A DNA stretch of 64,000 nucleotides, taken from the NCBI RefSeq assembly GCF_030389965.1, contig NZ_CP128399.1, forward strand, positions 1,426,001-1,490,000. Direction: 5' to 3'. Positions 25,195-60,707 of the stretch are shown here, one piece after another. The translations under genes and the position numbers were made by a program. The notes beneath the pieces were generated by a model, which had not been told where the DNA came from, made no database searches, and worked only from the letters and a program-made list of their open reading frames with translations. Each line of letters starts with the position of its first letter. Positions within the stretch are counted from its first letter, which is position 1. The DNA is from Candidatus Chlorohelix allophototropha (lineage in GTDB: Bacteria > Chloroflexota > Chloroflexia > Chloroheliales > Chloroheliaceae).

Positions 25195-25992
25195 TTAAGA
25201 ACCAGTTCCCGCTTCCGGTTTCTTTTCTTCTGGTGGAAGTTGCCGACGCTCTAAGCCGTAACTCTCCTTTCCTAAAGTGCGGTAACTGCTACCTCTTAAA
25301 TAAAAAACTTCTCCGTGATGCAATAAACGGTCAATAATCGCCACCATCAAGGCAGTATCACCACCCTCGATCAGTTCGCCCCAGTTAGAAAGGCTTTTGT
25401 TACTGGTAATGATCGTAGCACCTCTGAGGTAACGTCCGCTGATCAGCTCATATAAGGCCGGACCTACACGTGCGTCCATCGGTAAATAGCCCAGTTCGTC
25501 TAATACCAACACCTGACATTTCAAAAGCGGCTCTAAAATCCTGGCTATTTCCTGGCGAGTGCTAGCCGCAATCACTTGGTTCGCCAGTTGTTGAGCCGTA
25601 ATGAACTTTACGGTGTAACCCAACTGCACCATCTTAATTCCGGCTGCAATCGAAAGATGGGTTTTCCCAAGCCCACTTGCCCCGATTAGGAGTAAATTCC
25701 CAGCTTTTTCTACAAAACTGCTGTCGAAATAGCGTAAAATCACGCTGCGCTTCAGTTCCGGGTGGCGACTGAAATCGAATTGTTCCAGGCTGGCTTCAAA
25801 AGGGAAACTGGCTGAGTGCAAACGCTTTTTGAGTTGGTTCTCCTGACGAGATAGCAACTCTTCGCTTAACAATTCTTCTAAAAACTCCCCGTAATCCATT
25901 CCGGTTTCGCGTGCCCGTTCAATCCAATCGCTGTATACCTGTTTTACCCTGCCCAGTTTTAGGCTGGTGAGTTTATGTTCCAGACTATTCAT
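25195..25992 (-). CDS. istB: IS21-family helper ATPase IstB
   Basis: AAA+ ATPase of 265 residues that loads the IstA transposase on target DNA, resembling DnaC/DnaA. Walker A is GASGLGKTHLS (about 103-113), Walker B VLVLDELGYLP (about 161-171), followed by the sensor-like ATIITSNKSLSNWGE. The N-terminal LTSLKLGRVKQVYSDWIERA region is the IstB-N domain. The start overlaps the istA stop by four bases (ATGA), as in most IS21 elements. Full length, apparently intact. Confidence 0.95.
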   Translation of the reverse strand: MNSLEHKLTSLKLGRVKQVYSDWIERARETGMDYGEFLEELLSEELLSRQENQLKKRLHSASFPFEASLEQFDFSRHPELKRSVILRYFDSSFVEKAGNLLLIGASGLGKTHLSIAAGIKMVQLGYTVKFITAQQLANQVIAASTRQEIARILEPLLKCQVLVLDELGYLPMDARVGPALYELISGRYLRGATIITSNKSLSNWGELIEGGDTALMVAIIDRLLHHGEVFYLRGSSYRTLGKESYGLERRQLPPEEKKPEAGTGS

Positions 25993-53517: not shown

Positions 53518-55074
53518 TCAGGGGAGAATATAGCGACGGGCTTTTTTCTGCCCAACTGCTCGCAATGAACCTCGTTTGACCAATATTTCAAGGTCACGCA
53601 TGCCGGTGCTTTCTGATACCCCAGTGATAGCGCGATACTCGCGATTGGTGATGCTGCCCTGCGTATGGACATGTTGCATTGCTGCTTTCAACCGCTCGTC
53701 TATATCGGCATAAATCGCCGGGTTTATCGCCCCTGTTCCTTTAATAGCTTGAGTGACTGTTTCAGGCAAAGAGTTTAAACTTCCTATTTCTATACCAGTC
53801 TCACTTTTATTGAAAGCAGGGGTAGTATTAGCAACTATGGGATATGTAGGTTGAACTAGTTCGGAGGTAGGTGAGGACACAGCAGAGCGAAAGGTTACAA
53901 CCAGTTCGCCCATTTCGCGAAACTCCGGGTCGGGCAAGCGGTGTTCGCGCATCTCGTTTATCATCAAGCGCACCCCGCTACCGATGGTTTCGACATAACC
54001 GGGAATATCGCGTAACAACCCGGCGATAACCGGATTACGCAGTCGCGAAGGAGCTAAACCGTGCGACAACATCTCAAGGGTGATGCCCGGTAGCAGTTCA
54101 CCGGGGCTATGCACCTCCAAGCGGGTGGGATAATAGAAAAGGCGCACCGATTCGCCGGGGTGGCTGTAGTCGCGATGAATCAGAGCGTTGACCGTTGCCT
54201 CGCGCAATGCCAGTGATGAATATTCAGGCACATCCACATGCCGGAAACCTTCACCTCTACTCTGCGTCACCGGCATGTGACGCTTCAACCAGCCTTCCAC
54301 CTCTTGAATCAGAACTGGTAATGAACCACGAAAGATTTTCCGATCTTTGTAAGCGCGCACACCCAGTTCATCCCCGTATAGAACACAGGTTACGATAGAT
54401 TGGAGTAGAAATTGCTGTGGCTCGAAGCCGAAAAATAGCAAACCCGCATTGGTAGGTATATAGCGGTCACCTTCTTTTATAGCACACTTAAGACCCACTA
54501 ATGCATCTTCCAAGTTTCGGAAGCGATTCGCCCTTCCTATCAAACTCTGTTCGCCACGCCGCGCCAGAAAATCCTCGATGCGCTGACGATCAAGGTCTTC
54601 AAGGGTTGCACCCTCTGCCGGGCTAAGTTCCCAGCGCAAAACGCCCCGACTATACAGGCGGTTCGAAATTTCCTCTATAGAATGAGGGACGGTGTGGGTG
54701 CCGCGCCGCACCCAGAAAACGCCACCCGCTTGATAAACCGGAGCTTTGCTGGCAGGCACATAAGCTACCACCACATTTTTATCTTGTAGGCTGAATATTT
54801 GCGGTTCGGGAGGCTCGAATACAAGCGGCGGTTGGCACATCCGGGCAGCGCGTAGCAGCACGTCAATTGCTTCGCCGTTATCCTTCACACCTCGAATCGC
54901 CAGCGTTCCATCCTCTACCCCTAGCACAATCCAACCGCCTTTAGCATTAGCCAACCCGCACAACCGCTCTGCCAAATCGTTGGGGCGCGGTGGCGCTATT
55001 TTCAGTTCAAGGGTGGAACTCTCACCGGCGGCTATCAACGCTGCAAGAGTGGCTGCATCCAGATTTTCGCTCAT
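53518..55074 (-). CDS. AlbA/Schlafen-type DNA-binding and ATPase protein
   Basis: 518 residues. N-terminal AlbA_2 (Schlafen-like) domain about 15-130: ESSTLELKIAPP, LANAKGGWIVLGVEDG. Middle GHKL/HATPase_c_4 part: ALREATVNALIHRDYSHPG (N box), LEVHSPGELLPGIT and YVETIGSGVRLMINEM. The C-terminal winged helix is preceded by a variable linker (GSITNREYRAITGVSESTGMRDLEILVKRG). Proteins of this type are often transcription regulators or defence-related. It is the last gene of the leftward replication cluster, 80 bases after the initiator; a tandem GGTTAT array sits in its leader. Confidence 0.85.
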   Translation of the reverse strand: MSENLDAATLAALIAAGESSTLELKIAPPRPNDLAERLCGLANAKGGWIVLGVEDGTLAIRGVKDNGEAIDVLLRAARMCQPPLVFEPPEPQIFSLQDKNVVVAYVPASKAPVYQAGGVFWVRRGTHTVPHSIEEISNRLYSRGVLRWELSPAEGATLEDLDRQRIEDFLARRGEQSLIGRANRFRNLEDALVGLKCAIKEGDRYIPTNAGLLFFGFEPQQFLLQSIVTCVLYGDELGVRAYKDRKIFRGSLPVLIQEVEGWLKRHMPVTQSRGEGFRHVDVPEYSSLALREATVNALIHRDYSHPGESVRLFYYPTRLEVHSPGELLPGITLEMLSHGLAPSRLRNPVIAGLLRDIPGYVETIGSGVRLMINEMREHRLPDPEFREMGELVVTFRSAVSSPTSELVQPTYPIVANTTPAFNKSETGIEIGSLNSLPETVTQAIKGTGAINPAIYADIDERLKAAMQHVHTQGSITNREYRAITGVSESTGMRDLEILVKRGSLRAVGQKKARRYILP

Positions 55075-55154: not shown

Positions 55155-56129
55155 TTATTCCTCATCCGAGTAGGGCAAGCTGTTAGAGCTTTTCAGCAAG
55201 TAATGATATTTGCCGTCCGGATTGGTATAAGCCGAATAATTTATCCCTGCGTTATTTTGAGCGCGTCCCGTGGGTCGCGATGAAACCGGCTTGTCGGTAG
55301 AGCGCAACATTTTGACCAGAAAGGCCGGGCGATCGCGTACTCTTTCGGCGCTATCAACGTAATCCATCCAGCTTTCCACCGTTTTAAGGCTGGTATGCTG
55401 GCTGATTTCGCGAGCGACTTCCGGCGAAACTCCGTAATCAACCAGCAATTGCTCCACCACCGCCTGTTTGGGGTGGTTGTTTTGATTCAGTTTATTTGGG
55501 TTGTCTTTCTCTGTACGGGGTCTAAAGTTTTGACTCCGGAGGTCTAGATCTTGTGGGTCGGGGTCTAAAATTTGTGCCTTGAGGTCTAAATTATAGACTT
55601 CAGGGTCTAAATCTTGTACCTTGGGGTCTAAAGTTTTGACCCCTGCTGGTTTGCGGTTATGTCTGATTTTGCGCTCTTCCGGTTCGATACATTCATCTGT
55701 ATCAATCGGTTGGGCGGTTTCTACCATACGGAGGCAGTAATATTTTTTGATGCGGGCGAGGTCACGGGCGTCTACCTCTTCCAAAATAAAGCCGTCTTCG
55801 ATGGCTTGTTTCAAGCCATTGCGTACCGATTGTTCGCTGAGGCGTGTGCCTAAATCCATACGCGAACCATCGGTGCGCTTGCGCCCGTAAATAAATTCGT
55901 CAATGGTGATGCGGCGTTTGATGCCGAATTCTTGGAAACCCCAAGTGTGCCTGAGAATATATTCTACTACTTTGAGTTCGGCTAGGCTGTTGATACGGGC
56001 GGTAATGTCCGTCCAGTTGTTGGGCATGCGGAAATAATTGCTTTCCGGTCGTGAGAAACCTGCAAACTCGAATTTATCGGACGGAGAATCGCCATTATCG
56101 GGTTGTTCTGTTGTTGAACGCTTGCCCAT
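55155..56129 (-). CDS. lambda O-like replication initiator with intragenic iterons
   Basis: 324 residues. About 30-130 resembles the winged-helix domain of phage replication protein O: YFRMPNNWTDITARINSLAELKVV, LRHTWGFQEF, then RLSEQSVRNGLKQAIEDGFI (recognition helix). About 165-210 is a 7-residue repeat region (TLDPKVQ, DLDPEVY, NLDLKAQ, ILDPDPQ, DLDLRSQ) coded by the iterons. The C-terminal part (GVSPEVAREISQHT ... VESWMDYVDSAERVRDRPAFLVKMLR) is the conserved tail of many plasmid initiators. It should bind the iterons and load the helicase. No DnaA-type protein is present here. The rest of its operon lies upstream (parB, AAA ATPase). Confidence 0.78.
   Translation of the reverse strand: MGKRSTTEQPDNGDSPSDKFEFAGFSRPESNYFRMPNNWTDITARINSLAELKVVEYILRHTWGFQEFGIKRRITIDEFIYGRKRTDGSRMDLGTRLSEQSVRNGLKQAIEDGFILEEVDARDLARIKKYYCLRMVETAQPIDTDECIEPEERKIRHNRKPAGVKTLDPKVQDLDPEVYNLDLKAQILDPDPQDLDLRSQNFRPRTEKDNPNKLNQNNHPKQAVVEQLLVDYGVSPEVAREISQHTSLKTVESWMDYVDSAERVRDRPAFLVKMLRSTDKPVSSRPTGRAQNNAGINYSAYTNPDGKYHYLLKSSNSLPYSDEE
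55262..55279. promoter_or_regulatory. 18-bp palindrome, copy 1 (inside the initiator gene)
   Basis: CGCGTCCCGTGGGTCGCG; near-perfect palindrome. Also at 58665 and 60717. Confidence 0.75.
55465..55512. other. A/T-asymmetric stretch next to the iterons
   Basis: T-rich on the plus strand (A-rich on the coding strand), immediately beyond the iteron array in the downstream direction, as in the lambda origin. Candidate DNA-unwinding element; evidence is positional. Confidence 0.4.
55517..55640. repeat. six-iteron array inside the initiator gene (candidate origin)
   Basis: GGTCTA starts at 55519, 55541, 55562, 55583, 55604 and 55625, spacings 22, 21, 21, 21, 21. The outer two copies share GGGGTCTAAAGTTTTGAC (55517-55534 and 55623-55640) although 106 bases apart, that is, read in different frames. 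On the coding strand the core is TTTAGACC. Confidence 0.8.
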
Positions 56130-56229: not shown

Positions 56230-56257
56230 TTGACATGCGACATGGGCAGGGTATAAT
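56230..56257 (+). promoter_or_regulatory. consensus promoter of the antisense RNA
   Basis: TTGACA (56230-56235), 16-base spacer, TATAAT (56252-56257): both hexamers perfect. Reads rightwards, opposite to the initiator gene. Confidence 0.85.
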
Positions 56258-56263
56258 AGAAGG

Positions 56264-56390
56264 ACAAAGGTTTGCATGCCCACATCGGGTAAAATTCAAG
56301 CCAGCCGCATCGGGTAATCCCCCCGGCTATACGCTAAACTTTGAAAAGGACAACCTCTCGCCGCCAAGCATACGAGGTTGTTTTTATTTT
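56264..56390 (+). ncRNA. candidate antisense (countertranscript) RNA to the initiator leader
   Basis: From the expected start near 56264 to the terminator tail at 56390, about 125 nt. The middle carries an AGCCG ... CGGCT stem and CATCGGGTAA twice. It is fully complementary to the leader between parB and the initiator gene on the minus strand. A 13-codon frame (ATG 56276) lies inside and could instead be a leader peptide. Confidence 0.65.
56351..56390 (+). terminator. intrinsic terminator of the antisense RNA
   Basis: CAACCTC (56351-56357) / GAGGTTG (56374-56380), then TTTTTATTTT. Oriented rightwards, where no protein gene on that strand needs it. Confidence 0.9.
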
Positions 56391-56394
56391 GGTT

Positions 56395-57483
56395 TCAGTC
56401 GCCGCTTTCCAACCGCTCTAAATCCTGTCGCAATAGCGTTATCAATTCTTCGCGGCTTAACGGCTTTTCTTTTCCATTGCCTCCCCACCGACGGATGATT
56501 TCAAGATCCGCCAGTTTTATAGAGGGTTTCGGTTCGTTCTCTGGTTCTTCGCTCAGACCGGGCAAAATGGGTTGCTCGTTCTGTTTAGGCTGCTCTTTCT
56601 GCACAAGCTTTGAATTGTGACTGCTCAATTCGCCACCGCCGCGCCGTTGCGCCTTAACGCCCCGGTAGCCTTTTAGCAATTTTATGGCTTCGCTGCTGGA
56701 AGGCTTGCGCCCTAACTGCGTTTCTAATGTGCGAATTGCTTCTGCTGCTACACGCTGACGTTCTCGCGGAATGCGAGAAAGTTCTCGCACTACCCCTACC
56801 CCGTAGCTGAGTTCGCCGCCCGGTTCAATATTGTGAATAAAATCACTAAGAGTAGCCTGAGCTACAAATTGTGAATTATCTAACAAACTATCGGTGGTCT
56901 GATGCAACAAAATTCGGCGTGCTTCTGGGTCAAGATTCTCCGCAATAGAGATGCGTTCGGCTACATAAACCCTGCCAGCCTCGCCGCTTTTGCCCAATCG
57001 CTGTGCGATTTCCGCTTGAGTCATATTGAATTCCGAGGCGAGCAAGTGATAGCTTTCGCCCTCTTCCCACGGAGCAAGTGCGCGCCGTTGTACGTTCTCG
57101 GTAATGGCGTTGAGCAACGAACCTTGCGGGTCGGTTTCGCTCAAAATCAGTACCGGCACTAGCTTTTTGCCAAGTTCGCGTGCGGCGGTAAGGCGACGTT
57201 GTCCGGCGATAAGGGTATAACGGGTATCAGCGTTTGGTGCGGCGGGTTTTTCGCGCATAACCAACAACGGCTGGAGTATCCCCTGCGCTTCGATACTGGC
57301 TTTCAATTCTTCCAACGCCACGCGGTCGAGGGTTTTACGAGGCTGGCGTGGGTTTGGGTCTATCAGGTCAGAGCGAATCCAAGTAAGCCTGCCGGTGGGC
57401 GCTTCGTCCGCGCCTACGTCTTGCTGCCACAACTCGCGCCGTGTTCCGGCAGTATTGGAATTGTTGTTGCGTTTCGCTGTCAT
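56395..57483 (-). CDS. parB: ParB/Spo0J-type partition protein (first copy)
   Basis: 362 residues. ParB N-terminal domain from about 35: LIDPNPRQPRKTLDR, IEAQGILQPLLV, then TLIAGQRRLTAARELG (the GxRR nucleotide loop) and the second box AITENVQRRALAPWEEGESYHLL. A helix-turn-helix follows (MTQAEIAQRLGKSGEAG). The C-terminal half (about 200-360) is long and charged, with RRGGGELSSHNSK. ATG 57483 is preferred (GGTGGGG before it); GTG 57492 is the alternative. It starts right after the AAA ATPase stop, in the same operon, and the antisense-RNA region follows before the initiator. Confidence 0.88.
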   Translation of the reverse strand: MTAKRNNNSNTAGTRRELWQQDVGADEAPTGRLTWIRSDLIDPNPRQPRKTLDRVALEELKASIEAQGILQPLLVMREKPAAPNADTRYTLIAGQRRLTAARELGKKLVPVLILSETDPQGSLLNAITENVQRRALAPWEEGESYHLLASEFNMTQAEIAQRLGKSGEAGRVYVAERISIAENLDPEARRILLHQTTDSLLDNSQFVAQATLSDFIHNIEPGGELSYGVGVVRELSRIPRERQRVAAEAIRTLETQLGRKPSSSEAIKLLKGYRGVKAQRRGGGELSSHNSKLVQKEQPKQNEQPILPGLSEEPENEPKPSIKLADLEIIRRWGGNGKEKPLSREELITLLRQDLERLESGD

Positions 57484-57496
57484 CCCCACCACTAAA

Positions 57497-58369
57497 TTAA
57501 TCTAAACCAGCCAGTTTTACCGCCTGTATAATAGTATGTTCGCTGATTTTGCTTTCGTCTTTTTGCGCGCCTAGCACTAATGCGTGGAAACCGATTTTGC
57601 AAATGTTACGCGGTATCCCATCGCTATAGCGCACGAAAGCCTCCAGCGCGCCTTCATCGAAAATGACATTTACGTTGCCACCCACTACCTGAAGCCGGAA
57701 ATTTACCAAATCCATAACTTCGGACGCACCAAGCTTATTAAGATAACTGTGAGTCACAACGCGCTGCCAGAGGTTTCCACGTCGTTTGATTATGTCAATC
57801 AACTCGGTTTGACCGAACAAGACAACCTGTAGTAACTTTTCTTCGCCCCGCTCAAAATTGCCGAGGTGACGTATGTATTCCAGAGCTTCTTTTCGCAAGC
57901 TTTGTGCTTCATCTATTAGTAGTACAATGTTGTTAAGCTTTAGCTGGGTTTCTTCCAGAATGAACGCCTGCAACTGATCCTGCATACGGCTCACCTGATT
58001 GCTGACCGGGTCTAGCCCGAACTCGCGTACAATGGTGGAGAAAACCTGACTCGGTGTGCCGCTGGGATTACCTACATATGCAACCTTGTAGCCTTCGGTT
58101 ATAGCGATGCGGTCGTACAGAAACTTGGCGGTGGTGCTTTTGCCCGCGCCGACTTCACCATACACCGCTGCAAGACCCTGTCGTTCTCTCAGTACTACCG
58201 AGACGGCGTTAATCGCTTGCAGGTATTGCCCCTTCTGCATAAAGAAGCGCAGGCTAGTGCCGGTAATAGGGAAGGGGTTTTCAGTCAAGCCCCAATGGAA
58301 AAATTCTTTCCCCACCCGGTCGAGTGGCTCCATACGTTGGGTTAGTGAAAACCTGCTAAGCTGGGTCAT
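57497..58369 (-). CDS. ExeA/TniB-type AAA ATPase
   Basis: 290 residues. AAA_22-type fold: N-terminal YLQAINAVSVVLRERQGL, Walker A GEVGAGKST (71-79), Walker B IVLLIDEAQSL (about 147-157), sensor and arginine region LQVVLFGQTELIDIIKRRGN. The C-terminus has the helical lid ending AVKLAG. ExeA-type ATPases serve type II secretion, and TniB/MuB relatives load transposases or replication helicases. Here the context (parB, initiator) makes a helicase-loader or partition role more plausible. First gene of the leftward replication operon. Confidence 0.82.
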   Translation of the reverse strand: MTQLSRFSLTQRMEPLDRVGKEFFHWGLTENPFPITGTSLRFFMQKGQYLQAINAVSVVLRERQGLAAVYGEVGAGKSTTAKFLYDRIAITEGYKVAYVGNPSGTPSQVFSTIVREFGLDPVSNQVSRMQDQLQAFILEETQLKLNNIVLLIDEAQSLRKEALEYIRHLGNFERGEEKLLQVVLFGQTELIDIIKRRGNLWQRVVTHSYLNKLGASEVMDLVNFRLQVVGGNVNVIFDEGALEAFVRYSDGIPRNICKIGFHALVLGAQKDESKISEHTIIQAVKLAGLD

Positions 58370-58735: not shown

Positions 58736-59521
58736 GTGCCAGCACGCGAAGCAATGAACAGATGTATAGCCAGCGCGAACCAGAAGGGTGGTGTAGGAAA
58801 AACCACTACATTGGTAAACCTTGCGGCTGAAATGGCGAGTCGTGATTTTAAGGTACTGATTATAGACACCGATCCGCAGGAAGCCAGCGCCAGTTTGCGC
58901 TTGTTGGGATCGCGGAAATACAACCGTACTTTGGTAGATGTGTTGCAAGACGAGGCAAAACCGGAGGATACTATTATCCCGGTGACGAAAAATCTTGACT
59001 TGCTACCAAGCGATGCACGCCTGTCGGTGTGGGAACTGAATGCGCTGAACGAAATGGGACGCGAGTTTCTCTTTCGCCGCGCTCTTTCCGATTTCGTAAA
59101 GACTTACGATTATACTTTTATCGATTGTCCGCCTACGCTTGGCTTGATTGTTACAAATTCTCTGATGCTGGCGCGAGAAATTATCGTGCCGGTCAGTCCA
59201 CAGGAACTGAGCGTGGTGGGTCTAACCCAATTCTCAAATACAGTGCAAGCTATTCGCACTACGCTGAACCATGAAAACTTGCGTGTGCTTGGCTATCTGC
59301 TCAATAATGTACCTGCACGTGGCAACGTTTATACTGCTGTAAAGAATGCCGTTCGCAAACAGCTTGGCACATTGGTTTTCAAAACCGAAATACCGAGCAG
59401 TAGTGTTATCCCACAGGCGGAACTAATGCATCAACCGCTCTTGGCGCACGACCCGCGTCACAAAATAACCGAGCTATATTCCGCACTGGCGGAGGAGGTG
59501 ATTGCGCGTGGCAAGCGCTAA
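58736..59521 (+). CDS. parA: ParA-type partition ATPase
   Basis: 261 residues. Deviant Walker A NQKGGVGKTTT (about 15-25), A' motif IIDTDPQEASAS, Walker B YTFIDCPPTLG, and the late PRGNVYTAVKNAV. It lacks the N-terminal helix-turn-helix of type Ia plasmid ParA, so it is the short Soj-like type. GTG at 58736 has AAAGGA before it; ATG 58754 is possible. parB starts inside its last codons. It should move ParB-bound DNA across the nucleoid. Confidence 0.95.
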   Translation: MPAREAMNRCIASANQKGGVGKTTTLVNLAAEMASRDFKVLIIDTDPQEASASLRLLGSRKYNRTLVDVLQDEAKPEDTIIPVTKNLDLLPSDARLSVWELNALNEMGREFLFRRALSDFVKTYDYTFIDCPPTLGLIVTNSLMLAREIIVPVSPQELSVVGLTQFSNTVQAIRTTLNHENLRVLGYLLNNVPARGNVYTAVKNAVRKQLGTLVFKTEIPSSSVIPQAELMHQPLLAHDPRHKITELYSALAEEVIARGKR

Positions 59522-60707
59522 AAAACCCCGCTTTAATGTCGATAGCCTGACCACTATTATGTCAGGCGTGGCTGCTGAGGAGAGTTTGCCCGATGTGCGG
59601 ACGCTCGACCTTGAGTTCCTATTTATAGGAGACCAACCACGCCAATTGCTCGGGCTGGTAGATGAGTTTGAGAACGAGCAGGCGCGGGCGGACTGGATTC
59701 TTCCGGTTCATCAATTCCTCGACCATCTTAAAGCCAGCGCGCAGCAGGATGAAAAATCTGTAGCAGCAACCAGCCTCATTGACCTTGAGAATATGGCGCA
59801 GAGTATTCGTGAGCATGGCGTGTTGCAGCCCGTCTTGGTGCGTTATCAGGAAAGCGAAGATCGCTATATTCTCACCGACGGTCATCGTCGCGCTCTTGCC
59901 TCGGTGCTTGCTGGAAATACCCGGATTGAAGCGAAAATCAAACGTGTTTGGACTTCACACGAAATTCTTTCTGAGCAACTAATCGCCAATCTGCAACGAA
60001 AAGATTTGACCGCTCTTGAACTGGCGCGGGCGATTTCACAACTTCGAGAGCTATATGCCGGTCAACTAAAAGAAACCGAACCAAACATTCATCCCAACCA
60101 ACTTGCTGCTAGAGTGTGGGACAGGTTGGAGGCAAGTTTGGGTATCGGGCGTAGGCAGCTGCAACGCTTGATGCAGGTTAACGAATTCCTTAAAGCGTTA
60201 GACCCAGAACTGGCAGACCTTGCCTCGGATTTGAAGGAAAGGCAATTCCGCCCGCTCTTTCGCTTATCTACCGAGACGCAACCGCTGGCTCTTACGCTAG
60301 TTGCCCTAAATAAAGAGAAATCTTTGCAGGATATTGAACATTTGGTTGAGCGCAGTCTAAGTGGCGCGAACATCTTGAAAATAGCCAGAGAAATGGGTTG
60401 GTCGTTACCCACCTCTCCAACTCCGACACCCCCTCCCAAATCTTCAATTCCCGACATCGCGCTTGATGCAGAGGAAGAAGAAGAAGAAGAGTTGAAAGCG
60501 GTAAATGTTAAGAATGTGCTTTCGGCTCTGAAGCGCATGCCGCGCCAATCTGAAGCTCTCTTGCGCCGTCTCGAAGAAGAGCTTGCGATTGCCCCTGAGA
60601 ATGAAAGAAAGAAACGGCTCTATCGCATCGAGGAAATCGAGCAGGAAGCCTTTAAGCTCAGTCGCAGGCTTGCCGAAATCCGCAAAAAATATATTAATCC
60701 CCTCTAA
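59508..60707 (+). CDS. parB: divergent ParB-like partition protein (second copy)
   Basis: 399 residues. The nucleotide loop is RYILTDGHRRALASVLAGN (GHRR in place of GERR), the second box EQLIANLQRKDLTALELARAI; a helix-turn-helix-like region (GIGRRQLQRLMQVNEFLKAL) follows. The N-terminus is longer than usual: about 75 residues precede DLENMAQSIREHGVLQPVLV. The C-terminus has a Pro-rich hinge, a run of Glu (EEEEEEEL) and coiled-coil (LRRLEEELAIAPENERKKRL). GTG 59508 fits GGAGG nine bases upstream. It overlaps parA by 14 bases. Palindrome copy 3 and the parS-like site follow directly. Confidence 0.87.
   Translation: MASAKKPRFNVDSLTTIMSGVAAEESLPDVRTLDLEFLFIGDQPRQLLGLVDEFENEQARADWILPVHQFLDHLKASAQQDEKSVAATSLIDLENMAQSIREHGVLQPVLVRYQESEDRYILTDGHRRALASVLAGNTRIEAKIKRVWTSHEILSEQLIANLQRKDLTALELARAISQLRELYAGQLKETEPNIHPNQLAARVWDRLEASLGIGRRQLQRLMQVNEFLKALDPELADLASDLKERQFRPLFRLSTETQPLALTLVALNKEKSLQDIEHLVERSLSGANILKIAREMGWSLPTSPTPTPPPKSSIPDIALDAEEEEEEELKAVNVKNVLSALKRMPRQSEALLRRLEEELAIAPENERKKRLYRIEEIEQEAFKLSRRLAEIRKKYINPL

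Follow-up and report, generated by a model that had tools for sequence, protein, structure and literature searches.

A candidate antisense RNA unit opposite the initiator leader of a plasmid-type replication module on chromosome 1 of Candidatus Chlorohelix allophototropha

We analysed a 64,000-nucleotide stretch of chromosome 1 (the window) of Candidatus Chlorohelix allophototropha, a green phototrophic bacterium for which a closed genome has been published (L227-S17; PMC10972752). The host genome consists of five contigs of 2.96, 2.45, 0.375, 0.241 and 0.055 Mb (C1 to C5), corresponding to two chromosomes, a chromid and two plasmids. In the window, a minus-strand operon runs from an AAA_22 ATPase gene through parB and a gap to a replication initiator, with parA and a second parB divergent from it (Table 1), and the reading frames of this module are all intact. 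Queries with the AAA ATPase against genome contigs, plasmids and viruses found a wide family. The Schlafen AlbA_2/RecG-C-like gene next to the initiator recurs near initiator modules in the host and in one relative (L063, L263, L264 and L265).

Table 1 Features of the replication module and its antisense unit, in window coordinates
Feature	Position	Strand	Remarks
Schlafen AlbA_2/RecG-C-like gene	53518..55074	-	Recurs beside related modules
Replication initiator, 324 aa, lambda-O/DnaD-like	55155..56129	-	PHROG 678 'replication initiation O-like', E 0.0011 (weak); homologs in relatives
Six 21-bp direct repeats, iteron-like, possible origin	55516..55640	-	Within initiator gene
Segment L3	56123..56131	-	Covers the initiator ATG; with L1 occupied, forms 9 pairs with L2
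Antisense promoter TTGACA-16-TATAAT	56230..56257	+	12/12 consensus
Leader segment L2	56238..56248	-	Encoded within antisense promoter spacer
Candidate antisense RNA, ~122 nt	~56264..56385	+	Start inferred from -10 box
Leader segment L1	56277..56287	-	Antisense-RNA-covered; 11 pairs with L2
Intrinsic terminator	56350..56390	+	Stem ACAACCTC/GAGGTTGT, loop 56358-56373 TCGCCGCCAAGCATAC, then U tract
parB (ParB_N + HTH_ParB)	56395..57492	-	Domain matches
AAA ATPase (AAA_22)	57497..58369	-	Apparent operon with parB
parA	58736..59521	+	
Second parB-like gene	59502..60707	+	

The initiator matched no Pfam family at E values up to 1, the RepC family (PF03428) included. Its match to phage O-like/DnaD-like initiators is weak (E 0.0011 for PHROG 678) but consistent; for its paralogs on C3, C4 and C5, matches to PHROG initiation/DnaD families have E values of 1e-13 to 1e-14. 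Six iteron-like repeats lie within the window gene; no repeats were detected inside the C3 to C5 paralogs. The lambda O gene contains its own origin, and with its internal repeats the window initiator resembles O in this respect.

Encoded on the strand opposite both genes, the antisense unit fits entirely between the stop codon of parB (56395) and the ATG of the initiator (56129). The initial annotation had described here a perfect TTGACA-16-TATAAT promoter and a strong rho-independent terminator bracketing about 125 bases, and this was borne out by the sequence: the promoter matches consensus at 12/12 positions, the terminator pairs 56350-56357 perfectly with 56374-56381 in an 8-bp stem around a 16-nt loop, followed by a U tract, and an RNA starting at the +1 estimated at 56264 would be ~122 nt long. 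Perfect TTGACA-16-TATAAT matches occur at 50 sites genome-wide versus 3 for a reversed control pattern, indicating that they are mostly real promoters. The predicted folding energy of the RNA is -37.9 kcal/mol (z -2.6 against shuffles). We also scanned for promoter-plus-terminator units under loose thresholds, which were chosen after the first units had already been seen, and with approximate initiator starts; this yielded 12 units in 928 kb of strand, or ~1 per 77 kb (0.005 per 420-nt interval), and the window unit shared the top score.

The further claim that the RNA is complementary to the initiator leader stood for the upstream part of the leader; the ribosome-binding site is not covered, and the initiator start codon lies ~134 nt from the 5′ end of the RNA. 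In the leader, the complement of the terminator forms a hairpin with GCUUGGCGGC in its loop, and a model built from relatives' units (R1) recovered this hairpin at 56350-56381 of the leader strand (16.7 bits, E 0.13). No Rfam family reached its gathering score in the window, the locus giving only a sub-threshold lncRNA match (E 0.27), and a repeat search of the parB-initiator gap found a single 13-nt direct repeat pair. We discarded a candidate leader peptide, which by eye seemed not to be conserved between the sequences.

A DNA-level search with the gap found no match in the host's own genome or in 40 relatives, and we therefore sought conservation by gene order. AAA-parB-initiator modules were identified in this way in four other searched genomes of the family, as well as in a single genome from elsewhere in the class. 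Ten parB-initiator gaps from related Chloroflexota were assessable, and nine of them (the window, L049-L052, L054 and L056-L058) contain a promoter and a terminator on the antisense strand, delimiting an RNA of 96-122 nt; the tenth, L055, has no recognisable antisense unit. The syntenic units keep position, size and architecture, and most share no DNA similarity with the window. Absence of the promoter and terminator from relatives had been named as the observation that would count against the initial annotation, and the outcome was the opposite, with both in place in 9/10 syntenic gaps. For many further lambda-O-like initiators in the family, the unit scan recognised no unit.

Five of the units could be aligned (alignment A4), with 90% of cells paired. 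Covariation in related genomes, which the initial annotation had proposed as a check, was found: 13 of the 30 base pairs have changed on both sides. The A4 covariation score was 0.40, compared with 0.19 in shuffles and ≤0.13 in slid controls, and exceeded every control; since the structure was itself taken from A4, the score is favoured. The terminator loop of the RNA reads UAGCUUGGCGGC in L052, L054 and L056-L058, and the loop of the window RNA is the reverse complement of it, which places the UUGG motif in the leader loop.

We searched a covariance model of the five aligned units through the class. Additional units came up at C3:277.6 kb (chromid) and C4:71.7 kb (a plasmid), and a weaker match at C5:26.9 kb (the smaller plasmid), each antisense to and immediately 5′ of an initiator. 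Further initiator paralogs were found with the C5 initiator as query. In total, nine lambda-O/DnaD-like initiators were found in the genome, six with a clear unit, one with a doubtful unit and two without. The clear units (C1, C2:1160 kb, two on C3, C4:71 kb and C5) are spread over all five replicons; the background in the unit scan was 0.005 per site. The doubtful unit (C2:462 kb) has a weaker promoter and overlies a roughly estimated start; no recognisable unit accompanies the initiators at L060:7518-9005 (C2:2093.5 kb) and L265 (C4:173 kb). A unit on G004_C212 was likewise considered doubtful for a weaker promoter over a roughly estimated start, a model match on G003:C32, although opposite an initiator, was not counted since the unit scan did not confirm it, and matches at E >0.1 (G011, G063, G060 and others) were left out of the counts. 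A phylum-wide model search of 400 genomes added nothing beyond the class. Units with GCUUGGCGGC in the terminator loop were seen in another family of the class (L245:7514-7627 and L246:7148-7262), one adjoining parA-parB and a 511-aa ORF and the other upstream of a primase-like gene.

Among the five paralogous units on C2 to C5, mean pairwise identity was 92% in the promoter, 93-100% in the stem and 53% in the terminal loop, a comparison of five sequences from one genome. Terminal loops of orthologs, by contrast, are identical or nearly so across species. We infer that incompatibility would select for just such a combination of fixed scaffold and diverged loop in replicons sharing a cell, and the loop divergence is consistent with repression in trans setting copy number or incompatibility. 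The initial annotation had likened the RNA to plasmid countertranscripts that control rep expression; the units in 9/10 syntenic gaps and beside initiators on the other four replicons support this reading at the level of sequence.

According to folding predictions, the leaders can form a three-way switch, in which L2 pairs either with the RNA-covered leader (L1) or with the ribosome-binding site and start codon (L3). In the nascent window leader, L1 and L2 are predicted to form 11 pairs, and when the antisense region is blocked L2 instead forms 9 pairs over the initiator AUG. Compared with shuffles, these pairings are each weak singly in the window (leader:L2, P 0.033; L2:L3, P 0.07). L2:L3 pairing reached P ≤0.003 in the five C2 to C5 paralogs, where the hairpin includes a U tract and the AUG, and P 0.000-0.013 in units of two relatives. 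The type-A relatives (L049-L051) showed no switch in the segment-pairing test against shuffles, and whole-leader folds with the antisense region blocked showed no general change in ribosome-site exposure. The switch is visible only in the segment-wise duplex test and in nascent folding. In the minimum-energy fold of the whole window leader the start codon is paired with or without the antisense RNA, so a switch in the window would depend on co-transcriptional folding. Overall, these predictions support the three-way switch well in the units of the other replicons and are suggestive of it in the window.

The locus has the sequence features of the countertranscript class: a short untranslated RNA, equipped with a promoter and a terminator of its own, opposite an initiator leader. 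We consider it probable that the ~122-nt RNA is a countertranscript that holds initiator synthesis low and so limits the firing of a plasmid-type replication and partition module, with effects on copy number and incompatibility. The module would comprise AAA ATPase, parB, the antisense RNA and the initiator, with parA-parB divergent. Its consensus promoter would drive constitutive synthesis of the RNA, whose terminator loop would meet its complement in a loop of the AAA-parB-initiator mRNA; one of these two loops carries a conserved UUGG U-turn. Bound to L1, the RNA is predicted by folding to free L2, which would pair with the initiator start region and block it, and by analogy with known systems less initiator would mean fewer initiations.

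The setting on chromosome 1 bears on whether the module is active at all. The contig begins at dnaA (C1:664), and the window module lies at ~1.482 Mb of the 2.961-Mb chromosome, nearly opposite dnaA. The segment 56130-60707 (C1:1.4821-1.4867 Mb) is within a few kb of the exact antipode, possibly by coincidence. GC skew in the host genome, taken at sampled points only, was uninformative. Another parA-parB pair lies ~93 kb from dnaA (L274, C1:93.5 kb), which makes the window module a further partition system on chromosome 1. A chromosome equipped with dnaA at position 664 and another parAB at ~93 kb could carry the module as a dead, integrated plasmid relic whose antisense unit has no present function; the intact frames, the perfect promoter and the persistence of similar modules across the family make this improbable. 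Elsewhere in the window, a 271-aa frame (25441-25698; C1:1451441-1451698) matches the DnaA profile; it occurs with the same score at eight or more places in the genome and is probably an IS21-like element's IstB-type ATPase.

Transcription itself, rather than its product, could also be the regulator. In every unit a consensus promoter faces initiator transcription, and polymerases fired from it might dislodge those bound for the initiator, leaving the RNA as a by-product, as has been proposed for the lambda pO promoter (PMC3985674). Such interference leaves unexplained the covarying RNA helices, the conserved U-turn loop and the divergence of loops among co-resident paralogs with constant promoters, and we judge it somewhat more improbable than a relic. 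A trans-acting small RNA that has its targets elsewhere and merely happens to sit in the gap is very improbable: the free-standing promoter and terminator and the compact fold would suit it, but the units recur opposite initiator leaders on every replicon and have kept this position though their sequences diverged past DNA-level detection. Although the short RNA lies near iteron-like repeats, it is scarcely credible that it primes replication or activates, through its transcription, an origin within the gap: its transcription runs away from the iterons and stops at a strong terminator, and repeats in the gap come to a single 13-nt direct pair.

Documented cases of antisense copy control come mainly from Proteobacteria and Firmicutes, and a limited search of the open-access literature found no report of it in Chloroflexota. 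The candidate units described here occur on every replicon of a multi-chromosome phototroph, the dnaA chromosome included. With paralogs that carry diverged recognition loops within one cell, the compatibility of large replicons with related initiators becomes testable, as does plasmid-style control on a main chromosome. The bolder proposal, that chromosome 1 has a working second origin almost exactly opposite dnaA governed by antisense RNA and that a family of countertranscripts with diverged loops sets compatibility between the chromosomes, chromid and plasmids of one cell, we regard as unlikely.

The initial annotation had called antisense control of a lambda O-like initiator unusual. This needs tempering in view of precedents in RepA_N plasmids, repABC replicons and lambda OOP; the unusual part is the presence of a candidate countertranscript unit on the dnaA-bearing chromosome, nearly opposite dnaA. 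By position, the nearest known system is the repABC countertranscript (RepE, IncA or inc-alpha), encoded between repB and repC in alphaproteobacteria, in systems that occur on megaplasmids and chromids (PMC6090056, PMC3155836). It shares with the Chloroflexota units an antisense RNA in the parB-initiator gap and a stem-loop able to terminate, and its refolding leader (PMC6090056, PMC3155836) has a predicted counterpart in them. However, the repABC RNA is ~50 nt long, compared with 96-122 nt here, its initiator is RepC, which has been reported only in alphaproteobacteria and to which the window initiator has no match, and the Chloroflexota units lack an Rfam match. Whereas repABC forms one operon, the window has the order AAA-parB-initiator, with an AAA_22 ATPase gene first and parA divergent; a single repA-repB-repC operon is absent, but the succession from parB through the RNA to the initiator is preserved.

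In initiator type and in mechanism, the closest known system is staphylococcal pSK41 (RepA_N plasmids). Its RNAI of ~83 nt is antisense to the leader of a DnaD-like initiator, ~100 nt ahead of the start, and according to the proposed mechanism its binding induces a stem-loop in which the ribosome site is concealed (PMC5703833). Both the antisense placement opposite a DnaD-like initiator leader and the ribosome-site stem-loop recall the Chloroflexota units; pSK41 belongs to a different phylum, its description includes no upstream parB, and the likeness is drawn at the level of description. In pT181, RNAI likewise acts through alternative pairings, a pre-emptor pairing against a ribosome-site stem-loop (PMC5703833), and the start-region hairpin of the C2 to C5 units similarly has a U tract, but the pT181 initiator is a rolling-circle Rep_trans protein and the RNA is 87 nt long. 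Phage lambda OOP is also a short antisense RNA directly upstream of an O-type initiator gene; it acts mainly on cII, and O-P mRNA stability is reportedly unaltered (PMC3985674). The window unit is a member of no single one of these named systems; it probably works like the repABC, pSK41 and pT181 RNAs and falls within the general countertranscript class.
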